Shown here: piece after piece, positions 8,894-53,795 of the stretch
How positions within the stretch are numbered: the first letter of the stretch is position 1
How the letters are laid out: each line of letters begins with the position of its first letter
NCBI RefSeq assembly: GCF_000429925.1
Contig: NZ_AUCU01000021.1
Location: 1-64,000 of the forward strand
Direction of reading: 5' to 3'
Source of the DNA: Desulfatirhabdium butyrativorans DSM 18734
Lineage (GTDB): Bacteria > Desulfobacterota > Desulfobacteria > Desulfobacterales > Desulfatirhabdiaceae
DNA: 64,000 nucleotides
Notes under the pieces: generated by a model
What the model saw: only the letters and a program-made list of their open reading frames with translations
Database searches by the model: none
What the model was told of the DNA's origin: nothing
Position numbers and translations under genes: made by a program

Positions 8894-9041
8894 TCGTATC
8901 AATAACTGATAGGTGTTGGGTATCCGTTCTTTGCCTGAGTTCCGATTTCGACAAAACATATCAATGTAGGAGCAAAAAATCGCGATATCTGAGAAGAACA
9001 AAAAGCTTTCCTGGATATTTCGGTTAAAAAGGACATTGAAG

Positions 9042-9413
9042 ATGGGTAAAACCAATCCAAGAGTTGCTGCTAGAATGAAGCGGAAGCAACGCATACGAAA
9101 ATCAATCTCTGGCACTCCAGATAGACCGAGGCTATGTGTTTTTCGCAGCTCAAAACACATATATGCTCAAATTATTGATGATACAAAAGGAATTACCTTA
9201 GTCTCCGCATCGACGCTCGATGAGGTTCTTCGATCACAAGGTGATACCAAAAAGAAAAAAGTCGAAAAAGCTGCGGAGGTTGGTCGGCTCATTGCGAAGA
9301 AGGCAAAAGAGAACGGTGTTACGAAAGTTGTCTTTGATCGAAATGGCTACCTGTATCACGGAAGGGTGAAAGCGGTCAGCGATGGCGCTCGGGAAAACGG
9401 ACTCGAATTTTAA
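9042..9413 (+). CDS. rplR: 50S ribosomal protein L18
   Basis: L18 binds 5S rRNA together with L5. About 123 residues with [20 protein letters not shown] and the C-terminal [26 protein letters not shown]. Start at ATG 9042 after AAGGA; a TTG two codons earlier (9036) is less likely. The stop is closely followed by the rpsE ribosome binding site. Confidence 0.96.
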
Positions 9414-9429
9414 TGAAGGAGGATTCCCC

Positions 9430-9924
9430 TTGGGAAAGCCGGAAATCAACGAAAGCCAGATGATAGACAAGGTAGTGCATCTCAACCGAGTCGCCAAGGT
9501 TGTGAAAGGTGGACGTAGGTTCAGCTTCAGTGCAATTGTTGTAGTGGGTGATGGGAATGGCAGCGTTGGATGCGGATTGGGTAAGGCTGGGGAAGTACCT
9601 GAAGCCATCAGGAAAGGTGTAGAGCAGGCAAAAAAGAATGTTGTTCGGGTACCTCTCACCCATGGGACCATTCCCTATGAAACGATAGGAAAATTCGGAG
9701 CAGGAAGGGTATTGCTAAAGCCAGCGTCTGAAGGCACAGGCGTTATTGCCGGGGGAGCTGTGAGAGCCATTCTGGAAGCTTGCGGCATTCAAAATATTCT
9801 GACCAAATGCATGGGCTCCCACAATCCACATAATGTGGTGAAGGCTACCATTGAAGGGCTATCCAGACTGCAAAGTCGCGAGCAAGTCGCCTCTCGAAGA
9901 GGTAAACCAATAGAAGAATTATGA
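9430..9924 (+). CDS. rpsE: 30S ribosomal protein S5 (TTG start)
   Basis: S5 of the decoding fidelity centre. Start placed at TTG 9430, six bases after GAAGGAGGA (9416-9423); an in-frame ATG at 9382 lies inside rplR and gives an unlikely N-terminus. Diagnostic: [38 protein letters not shown] and the [12 protein letters not shown] segment. About 164 residues. Confidence 0.95.
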
Positions 9925-34368: not shown

Positions 34369-34444
34369 GGGGCTGTAGCTCAGCTGGGAGAGCGCATGAC
34401 TGGCAGTCATGAGGCCAGGGGTTCGATCCCCCTCAGCTCCACCA
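34369..34444 (+). tRNA. tRNA-Ala (anticodon GGC)
   Basis: 76-base cloverleaf with all arms. Acceptor GGGGCTG pairs with CAGCTCC (one G-T), D arm GCTC/GAGC, anticodon stem CATGA/TCATG around loop CTGGCAG giving anticodon GGC, T arm AGGGG-TTCGATC-CCCCT. The encoded 3' end is ACCA. Reads GCC/GCU alanine codons. Confidence 0.97.
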
Positions 34445-48877: not shown

Positions 48878-50401
48878 TCAATACGCCTTGGCGAAGACCA
48901 CCCGCTGGGAGCTGGGTCTGCCGCAGCCAATGCATTTGCCCGCCTCCTCAGGCATCCCGAAAGGAATGCATCGGATGGTGACGGTCAGCTCCTGTTTGAT
49001 CCTGGCTTCACATTCGGCTTCGCCGCACCAGTGGCTGAGGGCGAAACCGCCGTGGATTTCAGGCTTGTCCGCATTTTTTGGCGTGAAAAATGCGTTGAAT
49101 GCCGCAGGATCGTCGATCGAGCGGGTATGGGCCTTCTGAAACGCCAGCGCGCGATCGAAAAGCCCCTGCTGGATGTCATCCAGAACCGAGCAGACGCTTT
49201 CCAGAAAAACGGTTTTCTGCAGGAATTGCTTTTCTTTGGGGCTTCGATCCCGTCTGGCCATCATGATCCCATCCTTGGCGATGTCCCGCGGGCCGATCTC
49301 GATGCGGACCGGTATTCCCTTCTTGATCCATTCCCAGCCCCTCGCGCCGCCGATATCCCGATCGTCCACCTCTACCTGCAGGAGCCGATCGTGGTATCGG
49401 ATGGTTCGCAACTGGGCACAAAGTTCGCCGGTGTAGGCCAGGACCGCCGATTTTTCGGCATCCGTTCGGTAGATGGGCAGCAGCACCACATGGGCGGAGG
49501 CGATTTTGGGCGGCATCACCACACCGTTGTCGTCCCCGTGGGTCATGATGAGCCCGCCGATCAGCCGGGTGCTCGCTCCCCAGGACGTTGTCCAGGCGTA
49601 TTGCTCGGTTTCCTCGCGGCTCTGGAATCGAATACCGGATGCCTTGGCGAAATTCTGGCCCAGGAAATGGGACGTTCCTGCCTGGAGGGCTTTCCGATCC
49701 TGCATCATGGCCTCGATACACTGCGTTTCGACGGCTCCCGGAAAAGTTTCGGCCGGCGATTTCCGGCCCCGGATGACGGGGATCGCCAGATAGTCTTCGA
49801 CGAATGTGGCATAGATATCGAGCATCAAGCGGGTTCTTTCCCGGGCTTCCGCTTCCGTAGCATGAGCCGTATGACCTTCCTGCCAGAGAAATTCGCTGGT
49901 TCGCAGGAATATCCGGGTACGCATCTCCCAGCGCACGACGTTGCCCCACTGATTGAGCAGCATCGGCAGATCCCGATAACTGCTGATCCATTTGGAGAAG
50001 GCATCGCCGATAATGGTCTCGGAAGTGGGCCGGACGATGAGCGGCTCGGTCAGCTCCGCAGCCGGGACGAGCCCTCCTGCGGCATTCTTTTCGAGTCGGT
50101 GATGCGTGACCACCGCGCATTCGGTGGCGAACCCTTCGACGTGATCCGCTTCTTTCTGGAGGAAACTTAAGGGGATGAACAAGGGGAAATAGGCGTTCTT
50201 CACACCCGTCGCCTTGAACATCTCGTCCATCACCCGCATGATGTTTTCCCAGAGCGCGTATCCCCAGGGTTTGATCACCATGCACCCGCGGACAGGGGAT
50301 TTTTCCGCCATGTCCGAAGCCTTCACCACCTGCTGATACCATTCCGGATAATCTTCCTGCCTTGTGGGCGATATCGCCGCTTTCTCGGATGCCGAGCTCA
50401 T
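48878..50401 (-). CDS. proS: Prolyl-tRNA synthetase, short archaeal/eukaryote-like type
   Basis: Charges tRNA-Pro. 507 residues of the ProS type 3 form: no editing INS domain, motif 2 near VVRWEMRTRIFLRTSEFLWQEGHTAH, motif 3 region TSWGASTRLIGGLIMTHGDD, an anticodon-binding domain and a C-terminal zinc-type domain ending near CIGCGRPSSQRVVFAKAY. ATGA overlap with ispG, 10-base gap to rel. The archaeal-type enzyme is found in scattered bacteria and suggests ancient transfer. Confidence 0.94.
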   Translation of the reverse strand: MSSASEKAAISPTRQEDYPEWYQQVVKASDMAEKSPVRGCMVIKPWGYALWENIMRVMDEMFKATGVKNAYFPLFIPLSFLQKEADHVEGFATECAVVTHHRLEKNAAGGLVPAAELTEPLIVRPTSETIIGDAFSKWISSYRDLPMLLNQWGNVVRWEMRTRIFLRTSEFLWQEGHTAHATEAEARERTRLMLDIYATFVEDYLAIPVIRGRKSPAETFPGAVETQCIEAMMQDRKALQAGTSHFLGQNFAKASGIRFQSREETEQYAWTTSWGASTRLIGGLIMTHGDDNGVVMPPKIASAHVVLLPIYRTDAEKSAVLAYTGELCAQLRTIRYHDRLLQVEVDDRDIGGARGWEWIKKGIPVRIEIGPRDIAKDGIMMARRDRSPKEKQFLQKTVFLESVCSVLDDIQQGLFDRALAFQKAHTRSIDDPAAFNAFFTPKNADKPEIHGGFALSHWCGEAECEARIKQELTVTIRCIPFGMPEEAGKCIGCGRPSSQRVVFAKAY

Positions 50402-51474
50402 ACCTTTCCTTTCTCAAACGATCGAATTTCTTCCAGCAACTGCGCTACCAACTGATTTTCGGGGATTTTGCGTACCACGCGGCCTTTCCTGAACAGGATG
50501 CCCACACCTTCGCCTCCGGCAATGCCGATATCGGCTTCGCGCGCCTCTCCCGGGCCGTTGACCACACAGCCCATGATAGCCACCTTGATGTCGAGGGTGG
50601 ACGTCAAAAGGGCCTGCTCCACCTCTTCGGCGATCCGGAACAGATCGATGCGGCATCTGCCGCAGGTGGGGCAGGAGATGATTTCCGGGCCGCGCCTTCG
50701 GATATCGAGCGCCCGGAGGATTTCATAGGCGACGCGCACCTCCTCGACCGGGTCCCGCGTCAGCGAAACGCGGAACGTATCGCCGATGCCCTCCAGCAGC
50801 AGGCTGCCGATGCCCAGGGCGGATTTGACGATGCCGCTGAAAAGACCGCCCGCCTCGGTAACCCCCAGGTGCAGCGGCAGATCGCTCTGTTGCGAAAGGA
50901 GCCGGTAGGCGGCTATGGTGCGTTTGACATCCGATGCCTTGAGGGAAACCTTGATCTGATGAAAATCCATCGATCGGAGCAGGTCGATATGCCGCAGGGC
51001 GCTCTCCACCATGGCTTCCGCAGTGGGGCTGCCGCAGCTTTTGAGGATATCCTTTTCGAGGGAACCGGCGTTGACCCCGACCCGGATGCAGGCGTTATGG
51101 TTTTTGGCCGCCTCGACCACCTTCCGGATTTTGGATTTTCCGCCGATGTTTCCCGGGTTGATCCGAAGCCCGTCGGCCCCGGATTCGAGCGCCTGGATGG
51201 CCAGCCGATGATCGAAATGGATGTCTGCGATGAGCGGAATCGAAATGGCCTGCCGAATCTTGCGAATGGCCCTGGCTGCCGCTTCGTCCGGAACGGCTAC
51301 TCGGATGATCTCACACCCTGCGGCTTCGAGCCGATGGATTTGTGCTATGGTGGTTTCCACGTCCTGGGTGGGGGTGTTGGTCATCGACTGCACGGCAATG
51401 GGGGCCATGCCGCCCACGGGAACATTGCCTACATGAACGGTTTGGGTAGATTTTCGTTGAATTTGCATCTGCAT
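50398..51474 (-). CDS. ispG: 4-hydroxy-3-methylbut-2-enyl diphosphate synthase (IspG/GcpE)
   Basis: MEP-pathway enzyme making HMBPP, a [4Fe-4S] protein. About 358 residues from ATG 51474: VHVGNVPVGGMAPIAVQSMTNTPT, the TIM barrel with LIADIHFDHRLA and RINPGN, and cluster ligands CPTCGRC and CVVNGPGEA. Readings to 51561 add an unrelated N-terminus. No clear ribosome binding site; ATG 51468 is an alternative. First gene of the ispG-proS-rel run. Confidence 0.95.
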   Translation of the reverse strand: MQMQIQRKSTQTVHVGNVPVGGMAPIAVQSMTNTPTQDVETTIAQIHRLEAAGCEIIRVAVPDEAAARAIRKIRQAISIPLIADIHFDHRLAIQALESGADGLRINPGNIGGKSKIRKVVEAAKNHNACIRVGVNAGSLEKDILKSCGSPTAEAMVESALRHIDLLRSMDFHQIKVSLKASDVKRTIAAYRLLSQQSDLPLHLGVTEAGGLFSGIVKSALGIGSLLLEGIGDTFRVSLTRDPVEEVRVAYEILRALDIRRRGPEIISCPTCGRCRIDLFRIAEEVEQALLTSTLDIKVAIMGCVVNGPGEAREADIGIAGGEGVGILFRKGRVVRKIPENQLVAQLLEEIRSFEKGKV

Positions 51475-51658
51475 ACATGTAATGACGGGGAAAAGGTACG
51501 CGTCTTTCAAACCACATTTTGACAGCACCATAACACGTTTTCCATCGGGTTTCCATATCATTCATCACGATAGGATGAGGTGCGAACCATCCGAAAACCC
51601 TTTGCAGTGCCTGCTCGATCCGTCAATCTTGCCAGAGGGGATTGGAAAGGAGAAGCTC

Positions 51659-52078
51659 ATGAAAGAGAAGAGAAACAAGATCGATCCCGGCAGCATCCAG
51701 CCGGAACTCAAGCGACTGCTGCAGGAACGGGCCGGCAGCGGCAGCATCGCCTGTGCCAGTCTGTTCGCTGACGTCGTCTCTGCGGGATTTTCCCCCAGCG
51801 AAGTGGGGCTTGCACTCGATGCGCTCGAATTGCGCATCAGCCACTGCCAGCTCGGGCTTTTCGGCTACCAGCCGGAAAAAAAGAAGGTTCATCCATTGCC
51901 ATCCGTGGAGCCCCAATTGAAGCAGGAAATCGAGCGGGTTCAGCAGGATGGCCGGATCATTTGCAGCGATGCCTGGGCGATTGCGCAGACATGCCATGTG
52001 CCCAAGTTGCATGTGGCCTGCGCCTGTGAAACACTGGGCGTCCGAATCAAATCCTGCCAACTGGGAGCTTTTGAATGA
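51659..52078 (+). CDS. Unknown protein with two 57-residue repeats
   Basis: 139 residues, start at ATG 51659 after AAAGGAGAAG. The protein is an exact-spacing tandem duplication: residues 13-69 and 83-139 align without gaps at an offset of 70. Shared features are PxLK, G(S/R)IxC, V followed by A four residues later, RI and a closing CQLGxF. Each unit reads like a small helical or winged-helix domain with two conserved cysteines. No family recognised. The ATGA junction with the next gene places it first in an operon with a phosphodiesterase and an HD-GYP protein. Confidence 0.8.
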   Translation: MKEKRNKIDPGSIQPELKRLLQERAGSGSIACASLFADVVSAGFSPSEVGLALDALELRISHCQLGLFGYQPEKKKVHPLPSVEPQLKQEIERVQQDGRIICSDAWAIAQTCHVPKLHVACACETLGVRIKSCQLGAFE

Positions 52079-52575
52079 CACAGCGGGACGATCGACCGAT
52101 GCGGTTTTCGATAGATCCGGGCCGCCCGATTCTCGTGCTTTCCGATACCCATGGCAGGCTCTCCGATGCCGTGATCCAGAAGCTGTTGGGCGCTCAGCTG
52201 ATTCTTCATGCAGGCGATATCGATACGGCTGAAACCCTCGCGGAAATTGAGGCCATCGGCCCTGTGGTCGTGGCCAGGGGCAACATGGATCTCGGTGGCT
52301 GGGCGCGGGAAATTCCTGCCGTACGGGTGCTTGTCGTCAACGATTACTGCATCCGGATCGTCCACAACCTGGCCCATTTGGGCGAGCTGGATCGCGGCGA
52401 AGCTGTCGATCTCGTCGTCCATGGGCATACCCACACCCCCGCCATCGAAACCGACAACCATACCCTGATCGTTAACCCGGGAAGCGCTTCCCTGCCCAAA
52501 CTCGGCATGACGCCCTCTCTGATGCGGATCTGGCTGCGGGAAAACGGGCTTGAAGCCGAGTTGGTGGTGCCATGA
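52075..52575 (+). CDS. YfcE/MJ0936-type metallophosphodiesterase
   Basis: 166 residues with the binuclear metal motifs of small calcineurin-like phosphodiesterases: VLSDTHG (D24, H26), HAGDID (47-48), ARGNMD (69-71) and VHGHTHTP near the end. Substrate unknown; members hydrolyse phosphodiesters in vitro. Overlaps genes on both sides by four bases, so it is made together with them. Confidence 0.9.
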   Translation: MTQRDDRPMRFSIDPGRPILVLSDTHGRLSDAVIQKLLGAQLILHAGDIDTAETLAEIEAIGPVVVARGNMDLGGWAREIPAVRVLVVNDYCIRIVHNLAHLGELDRGEAVDLVVHGHTHTPAIETDNHTLIVNPGSASLPKLGMTPSLMRIWLRENGLEAELVVP

Positions 52576-53795
52576 GTTCCGGCCTATCGCTTCCCTTGCC
52601 CGCAGGCCGGTTCTCCGGAGGGGAGCCATTGAGCATTCTGGTGGTCGATGACAATCCGGTAACGCGGAGCGTTTTGGCGCTGAAACTGAGGCAATGGGGC
52701 TATCGGGTTGCGGAAGCGGAAAATGGCATATCGGCATGGGAACTGCTTCAATCTTCGCCGATCCAGATGGTGATCACCGACTGGATGATGCCCGATATGG
52801 ACGGCATGGCACTCAGCCGCAGGATTCGTGAGGAAATCACCTCCCGCTATACCTATATCATCGTCGTCAGTGCGCTCGATTCCAAGCCCGACATATTAAA
52901 GGGATTGCAGGCAGGTATCGACGATTATCTGGTCAAGCCGATCGACTTCGATCATCTCCAGGCCCGGATGGCCATCGGGAAGCGGATTCTCGATCTCGAA
53001 AAGGGACTTCTGGTCCAAAATGAATTGATTCAGCAGAACTATTTTCAGACCATCCGCATGGTTACCCACCTGATGGAAGCCTTTGACGAAGAGCTGGGCG
53101 GGCATTGTCGCAGGGTGGGCCAGTTGGCCCGGACAATTGGCCAAATGCATCCCGATGTGCACGAAGCCGATCTGCCCGTACTGGAGGCTGCTGGATTTTT
53201 GCACGATATCGGTATGATCGGGCTTTCGAAAGCGATTGTCGGCAAACGGGAGACGGAAATGACCGGGGAGGAGAAAATCCTCTATCGCGCGCATCCCGTC
53301 CAGGGAGAGTTGATCCTGTCGGAGATCGAATCGCTGAAGCCGATTTCCCGGCTGGTCCGGCATCACCATGAACAAATCAACGGGAAAGGGTTTCCGGACG
53401 GTCTGAAAGGGGAAACGATTCCGGTTCTGGCCAGAATCATCTCGGCCGCTTCGATCTACGACAGCCTGTGCCACAAGCGGAAGGTTCCTATCGAGAATAT
53501 TCCCGAGCATCTGATGATGCTCAAAGGCTATCGTATCGAGCCCAGGCTCATCGATATGCTGCTCGAGGTTAACAGGCAGCGGATTGTTCGGGAACAGAAT
53601 GCGTCCGTGCTGGAATTACCGATTGACGAGCTCAAGGAAGGAATGGTTTTGGCCGATCATATCCGTAGGCCGAACGGTGCACTCGTTCTATCCAAGGATA
53701 CGCGGTTGAGCGCCTTCACGATAGAAACGTTGAAACGGTTTGTGGAGCTGGCCGCCATCGAAAGCGCCGTTTCGGTGTATCGCATGTTGCCTTGA
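52572..53795 (+). CDS. Response regulator with HD-GYP domain
   Basis: 407 residues: receiver about 20-135 (D70 in VITDWMMPDMDG), HD-GYP domain about 155-320 with HD at 211-212 (LHDIGMIG) and HHHEQINGKGFPDGL at 264-278, then a C-terminal domain of about 80 residues. The GYP motif is GFP and the usual acidic residue before it is Asn, so c-di-GMP phosphodiesterase activity is plausible but altered. Upstream of motAB, which would suit control of motility by c-di-GMP (inference). Confidence 0.92.
   Translation: MSSGLSLPLPAGRFSGGEPLSILVVDDNPVTRSVLALKLRQWGYRVAEAENGISAWELLQSSPIQMVITDWMMPDMDGMALSRRIREEITSRYTYIIVVSALDSKPDILKGLQAGIDDYLVKPIDFDHLQARMAIGKRILDLEKGLLVQNELIQQNYFQTIRMVTHLMEAFDEELGGHCRRVGQLARTIGQMHPDVHEADLPVLEAAGFLHDIGMIGLSKAIVGKRETEMTGEEKILYRAHPVQGELILSEIESLKPISRLVRHHHEQINGKGFPDGLKGETIPVLARIISAASIYDSLCHKRKVPIENIPEHLMMLKGYRIEPRLIDMLLEVNRQRIVREQNASVLELPIDELKEGMVLADHIRRPNGALVLSKDTRLSAFTIETLKRFVELAAIESAVSVYRMLP

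Follow-up and report, generated by a model that had tools for sequence, protein, structure and literature searches.

DsrC and TusE are carriers that use a C-terminal cysteine tail. In NuoE-type proteins, an N-terminal helix-turn-helix (HTH) is combined with a [2Fe-2S] thioredoxin-like domain. According to a review (PMC8593673), IscR is a winged HTH protein bearing a [2Fe-2S] cluster, and IscX, a small product of the isc operon, binds both iron and IscS. The minimal Fe-S systems MIS and SMS are described as carrier-free in a recent report (PMC12192291).

The protein described here is encoded in a 64,000-nucleotide stretch of the Desulfatirhabdium butyrativorans DSM 18734 genome (the window), and it resembles several of these systems in part. 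With IscR/Rrf2-type and other cysteine-bearing winged HTH proteins it shares conserved cysteines and an HTH-like fold, which is here a predicted one; however, no sequence match to them was found, its helix 3 is not basic, and its two modules, arranged in tandem, bear two cysteines each. As with IscX, a small isc-operon protein, there is an isc connection, since IscU-IscS genes precede the family gene at one locus (L215). The two differ in that no sequence match connects them and in that the present family has conserved cysteines, the comparison being one of sequence and not of fold. The N-terminal HTH of NuoE-type chains (NfnC, and the FDH and AOR small subunits) can be superposed on the predicted module by VIA-align with Z scores of 5.8 (rmsd 2.3, 49 aligned) and 5.7 (rmsd 2.0, 48 aligned), but these values are tied with those of unrelated HTH chains and no sequence match accompanies them. 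Nor is the NuoE-type architecture present, as the 139 residues are taken up by two modules and no second Fe-S domain was found.

The ATG of the 139-residue reading frame lies six bases beyond the end of an AAAGGAG sequence (Table 1). When the protein was aligned with itself, residues 13-69 matched residues 83-139 gap-free along a single diagonal (offset 70), and 17 of 57 positions were identical. In module 1 numbering, these positions are P15, L17, K18, G28, I30, C32, A37, V49, A52, L56, R59, I60, C63, Q64, L65, G66 and F68. The BLOSUM62 score of this diagonal was 76, as compared to 27 for the best shuffled diagonal, and none of 2000 shuffles reached 76. Given this test and the presence of the same repeat in relatives, the repeat is not due to chance. 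The two gap-free 57-residue repeats of the initial annotation are thereby borne out, and its list of conserved repeat positions was correct.

Table 1. Coordinates of the two-module gene, its sequence features and its neighbours in the window.
Feature	Position	Strand	Basis or remark
Two-module protein gene (P0001, 139 aa + stop)	51659..52078	+	Translation; homologues in 80/94 order/family relatives
AAAGGAG, probable ribosome-binding site	51646..51652	+	Read off the sequence
Module 1 (residues 13-69), end CQLGLFG	51695..51865	+	Self-alignment; AlphaFold2 helices 15-24, 32-41, 46-55, strands 29-31, 59-61
Module 2 (residues 83-139), C-terminal end CQLGAFE	51905..52075	+	Self-alignment; AlphaFold2 helices 85-94, 102-112, 116-125; same order in a lone module
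Core cysteine C32, module 1, start of helix 2	51752..51754	+	Invariant in relatives
Core cysteine C63, module 1, CQLG motif	51845..51847	+	Invariant in relatives
Core cysteine C102, module 2, start of helix 2	51962..51964	+	Invariant in relatives
Extra cysteine C123, module 2, helix 3	52025..52027	+	80/80 retained relatives, 13/21 more divergent two-module ones
Core cysteine C133, module 2, C-terminal CQLG motif	52055..52057	+	Invariant in relatives
YfcE-family phosphodiesterase	52075..52575	+	ATG overlaps stop of the 139-aa gene by 4 bases; no conserved unit
Response regulator with HD-GYP-type HD domain	52572..53795	+	Neighbour; no conserved unit
IspG, divergent neighbour	50398..51561	-	Pair recurs in relatives; tblastn matches in 35/109 loci

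With an alignment of 81 sequences, AlphaFold2 returned a model of mean pLDDT 84.6 and pTM 0.72, in which module 1 is ordered helix-strand-helix-helix-strand and module 2 consists of three helices. A lone module was modelled in the order H-E-H-H-E at a mean pLDDT of 83.8. Confidence was low at the CQLG tail, falling to 63 in the two-module model and to 50 in the lone module. These models agree with the small helical units proposed earlier. The predicted fold of the module is HTH-like, which does not by itself indicate a function. Searched against the PDB with Foldseek, neither model had a match at E up to 0.001, the fold matches being at E 0.89 or worse, with homeodomain/POU chains among the weak ones. 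In VIA-align the top rows were the NuoE-type chains NfnC and AOR small subunit, tied with AlaRS and homeodomain chains at Z values that the tool assigns to its 'common arrangement' range. HTH matches in Pfam were weak and below threshold. The mean charge of helix 3 was -1.35 in the first repeat, +0.18 in the second and -0.32 in single modules, and thus the helix is not basic. Since the third helix has no positive charge, a DNA-binding role is less likely.

The gene is present as a single copy in its own genome, and a search with the protein found relatives in 80 of 94 related genomes of the same order or family. A profile built from 30 relatives (A1) matched 188 of 395 genomes sampled from the window's phylum, single-module matches included. 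Among named species genomes, a pattern scan turned up at least 589 candidate stretches, of which at least 558 were confirmed as relatives; 80 of these were retained. The retained proteins derive mostly from Desulfobacterales, other Deltaproteobacteria/Thermodesulfobacteriota and Syntrophales-type MAGs, together with a few Spirochaetes MAGs and Bacterium UASB270. In a second phylum, that of a Spirochaetes MAG, 14 of 120 sampled genomes had a match; in the phylum of UASB270 the family occurred in 1 of 4 genomes, a sample too small to use. Searches of viral contigs yielded no confirmed relative, and a single-module query had no match among plasmids. On these searches a viral or plasmid origin was rejected, and the gene is probably a chromosomal one of housekeeping type.

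The protein itself matched no Pfam or NCBIfam family at E up to 10, and members of the A1 and A2 sets had weak, scattered matches in these libraries, none above the curated cut-off. DUF7645 (PF24655) had weak matches to 8/30 and 9/18 members, at E 0.0038 and 0.0012 at best; as the scans admitted E up to 0.5, these are at noise level, and assignment to the same family is unwarranted. Among PDB chain sequences, the best E values were 0.087 for the protein, 0.1 for A1 and 0.4 for A2, none of them convincing; mucin-2, archease and the other matches, at E 0.087 or worse, were taken as chance. Searches of Pfam, NCBIfam and PDB sequences thus yielded no well-described family into which the protein would fall. 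No paper with the motif CQLGCF or CQLGLFG came up in a literature text search, which does not in itself establish absence from print. The window protein belongs to a widespread, unnamed family of many anaerobic bacteria, and in one major anaerobic phylum roughly every second genome sampled carries a module that neither Pfam nor NCBIfam matches.

Many of the matches among the 395 genomes spanned one repeat only. They correspond to free single-module proteins of about 57 residues that end in CQLGCF or close variants: among 38 single modules the tail was CQLGCF in 30, CQLGLF in 5 and CELGCF in 3, in some with a few residues beyond. This set omits L159, a fragment at a contig end, and L158 was counted as a two-module protein. 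The single-module profile aligned with the repeat profile at a probability of 99.7; the A5 set included second modules from 70 of 81 and first modules from 50 of 81. As free single modules occur in many other lineages, the two-repeat form is, to judge from these sequences, a fusion or duplication of an existing miniprotein.

A quick tree was calculated from every third of the 80 retained proteins, 20 more, L158 and the window protein, the same set as used for the helix charges. In this tree, all 49 first repeats had a first repeat as nearest neighbour, all 49 second repeats had a second repeat, and 37 of 38 single modules were nearest to another single module; branch support values were mixed. 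This grouping of each kind with its own suggests one old pairing event behind the two-module form. The exception concerns a 154-residue two-module form (L158, L223 and L224), with CQLGCF or CQLGFF tails and a distinct N-terminus, whose three first repeats were placed inside the second-repeat clade. A second pairing event is therefore possible, and the 154-residue form is possibly a separate fusion. An operon of this form with cofactor genes was considered for G388, G369 and G329 and rejected, the AOR- and FdhD-type genes of G388 lying about 8-11 kb away on the opposite strand. Whatever the role of the protein, its free and fused forms clearly illustrate how a tandem protein has come from a miniprotein.

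The initial annotation had pointed to conserved cysteines. All four core cysteines are retained in the 80 retained relatives and in 21 of 21 more divergent ones, that is, in 101/101 two-module relatives, and the two core cysteines of the single module are kept in 38 of 38 single-module relatives, counts that are biased because the search patterns and profiles themselves contain these residues. No homologue lacking the core cysteines was found among the 101 and 38 proteins checked. Most single modules bear a third cysteine, which lies in the tail. Among the five ending in CQLGLF, L142, L157 and L201 carry an additional cysteine close to where helix 2 begins, and L150 and L204 contain no more than two cysteines. 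A conserved set of candidate cysteine ligands, such as is asked of an Fe-S or metal-binding protein, is thus present, which is permissive and no proof.

In the window, the YfcE reading frame overlaps the start of the HD-GYP reading frame (52572) by 4 bases, as it does the stop of the 139-residue gene. These overlaps make co-transcription of the three genes plausible in this genome. Across 109 loci of relatives (L002-L110, comprising two partly overlapping sets), however, tblastn at E up to 1e-10 recovered no relative of the window's YfcE, and the HD-GYP protein had matches at 3. The operon with a phosphodiesterase and an HD-GYP regulator proposed at first is plausible for the window itself, but the arrangement is not conserved (0/109 and 3/109 loci), and the local operon was rejected as a clue to function. 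Elsewhere in the window, a tRNA at 34369-34441 (+) was the sole Rfam match at gathering score.

At 140 loci, the genes most often found within two positions of the family gene encoded IspG (17), ACT (15), PaaK-like (14), MtnP-like (11), HesB-like (11), MBL-fold (10), radical SAM (9) and BcrAD-like (8) proteins, followed by Mrp (4) and another MBL family (4). IspG, the combination of a PaaK-like ligase and an ACT protein, and MtnP-like, MBL-fold and radical SAM/BcrAD genes were thus the commonest, and the neighbours are for the most part housekeeping genes. By seed match, Mrp directly adjoined the family gene at 4 of the 140 loci, IscS at 1 and SufB at 1. On the same strand, the family gene follows IscU-IscS in L215 and, a few genes off, in L106, follows SufC-SufB in L226, and precedes an Mrp/NUBPL-type ATPase in L156, L194, L200 and L202. 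In L149 it stands between FdhE and MoeA, with an FDH-like reading frame upstream, and in L193 the same-strand order is FDH, FocA, family gene, ModE-like, WtpA and, further on, MoeA; the ModE-like reading frame had no Pfam match. Same-strand neighbours also include a siroheme-decarboxylase-like protein (L144, L145) and an AhbD-like radical SAM protein (L216). The HesB/IscA-like gene was convergent, at 11/140 loci. This cofactor theme concerns few loci and was recognised post hoc, with no pre-set criterion and no background or random loci compared.

In the second phylum, carriers of the family had AOR (12/14 vs 15/106), FdhD (11/14 vs 14/106) and MoeA (12/14 vs 42/106) more often than other genomes. 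A Wood-Ljungdahl control, CdhC, was found in 9 of 14 carriers and 5 of 106 others, the match of G586 being scored as present although weak (E 3.6e-12, 265-aa frame), and its odds ratio, about 36, equals that of AOR. One genome (G517) has the family gene with MoeA, FdhD and AOR all absent. In the window's phylum the association with FdhD was mild (145/188 carriers vs 117/207 others). These counts ignore kinship, the lineages not being independent. A specific link to Mo/W was weakened by the equal odds ratio of the control and by G517, and because CdhC associates equally, the co-occurrence may reflect an anaerobic C1 lifestyle rather than Mo/W as such.

The observed repeat, its family and single-module form, the core cysteines and the occasional linkage to cofactor genes can be combined as follows. 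The protein would be a pair, within one chain, of a small HTH-like module found elsewhere as a free protein of about 57 residues, each module presenting one cysteine at the predicted start of helix 2 and another in the CQLG motif right after the last strand. Two free modules would associate as the counterpart of the fused pair, whose four core cysteines could together bind a metal ion, Fe-S cluster or persulfide. Such a protein might help to assemble, transfer or insert sulfur-rich metal cofactors in anaerobes, its clients being Fe-S enzymes and those with Mo/W, formate dehydrogenase for example. We give a chance of roughly one in three to a module of anaerobes that handles a cysteine-ligated metal, Fe-S cluster or persulfide and is probably no DNA-binding regulator; that the protein may help to handle iron-sulfur or Mo/W cofactors is a guess. 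The reading is favoured by the retained core cysteines, the same-strand cofactor neighbours in separate families, the convergent HesB/IscA-like genes, the non-basic third helix, the lack of viral or plasmid relatives and the co-occurrence with AOR and FdhD in the second phylum. It is weakened by the minority status of cofactor-assembly neighbours, the unspecific co-occurrence, the search bias in the cysteine counts, the low model confidence at the CQLG tail and the two single modules with two cysteines only.

A regulator and a structural adaptor are live alternatives to this cofactor-handling role. A redox- or metal-responsive transcription regulator would bind DNA through its HTH modules and sense through its cysteines, like IscR of the same fold class. 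The HTH-like predicted fold, the sub-threshold Pfam HTH matches and the homeodomain/POU fold matches are in line with it, and the divergent pairing with ispG in the window and in relatives resembles a regulator-target layout; yet the third helix lacks positive charge, the fold matches are weak, and no shared operator was seen by eye in an alignment upstream of 16 ispG-linked members, so that we regard a regulator as rather unlikely. We hold it somewhat unlikely that the modules, like the N-terminal HTH of NuoE-type proteins, belong to a structural zinc/thiol adaptor or complex subunit that has no part in cofactor assembly. NuoE-type chains do head the VIA-align results and the neighbours vary as widely as expected of a free-standing accessory protein, but unrelated HTH chains reach equal Z values and sequence profiles do not match NuoE.

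The position of the CQLG motif at the extreme C-terminus of module 2 and of single modules raises the question of a persulfide or thiol carrier acting through its cysteine tail in the manner of DsrC/TusE, and a cysteine desulfurase is a neighbour in L215 and a more distant one in L106. The same motif is also internal, in module 1, and neither DsrC nor TusE appeared among the profile matches; we judge such a carrier improbable. A bolder form of the cofactor-handling role is similarly a long shot: a dedicated carrier or chaperone of anaerobes, in which the free CQLGCF miniprotein of about 57 residues would pair round a cluster, metal or persulfide, would be permanently fused in much of the window's phylum, and would serve IscU-IscS, minimal SufC-SufB or Mo/W-enzyme maturation according to lineage. 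Were Fe-S or Mo/W handling to prove true, the family would be a new part in anaerobic cofactor assembly, where carriers are poorly known. The protein is small enough for direct biochemistry and NMR.

Several arrangements around the family gene are of separate interest. HesB-like selenoproteins are already known, and at six loci (L036, L053, L056, L057, L065 and L214) the HesB/IscA-like reading frame beside the family gene, on the opposite strand, contains an in-frame TGA, within SQGG-TGA-[SA]GP in five of the six and AQAG-TGA-SGP in L065. From this context, the TGA is likely a selenocysteine codon. In L106, a cysteine-rich 196-residue reading frame (8937-9524, +) without an NCBIfam match lies between IscU-IscS and the family gene; we take it to be DUF1847-like. 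At 15 loci (L044 and 14 more), the gene directly upstream, in the same orientation as the family gene, encodes a protein that by its sequence is of ACT type, and in most of them a PaaK-like ligase precedes it. Finally, at eight loci (L141, L153, L154, L155, L160, L197, L198 and L203) a single-module gene is immediately followed by genes for a radical SAM protein and an acyl-CoA dehydratase activase-like protein of about 1300 residues, a pair that may form a functional unit of its own.
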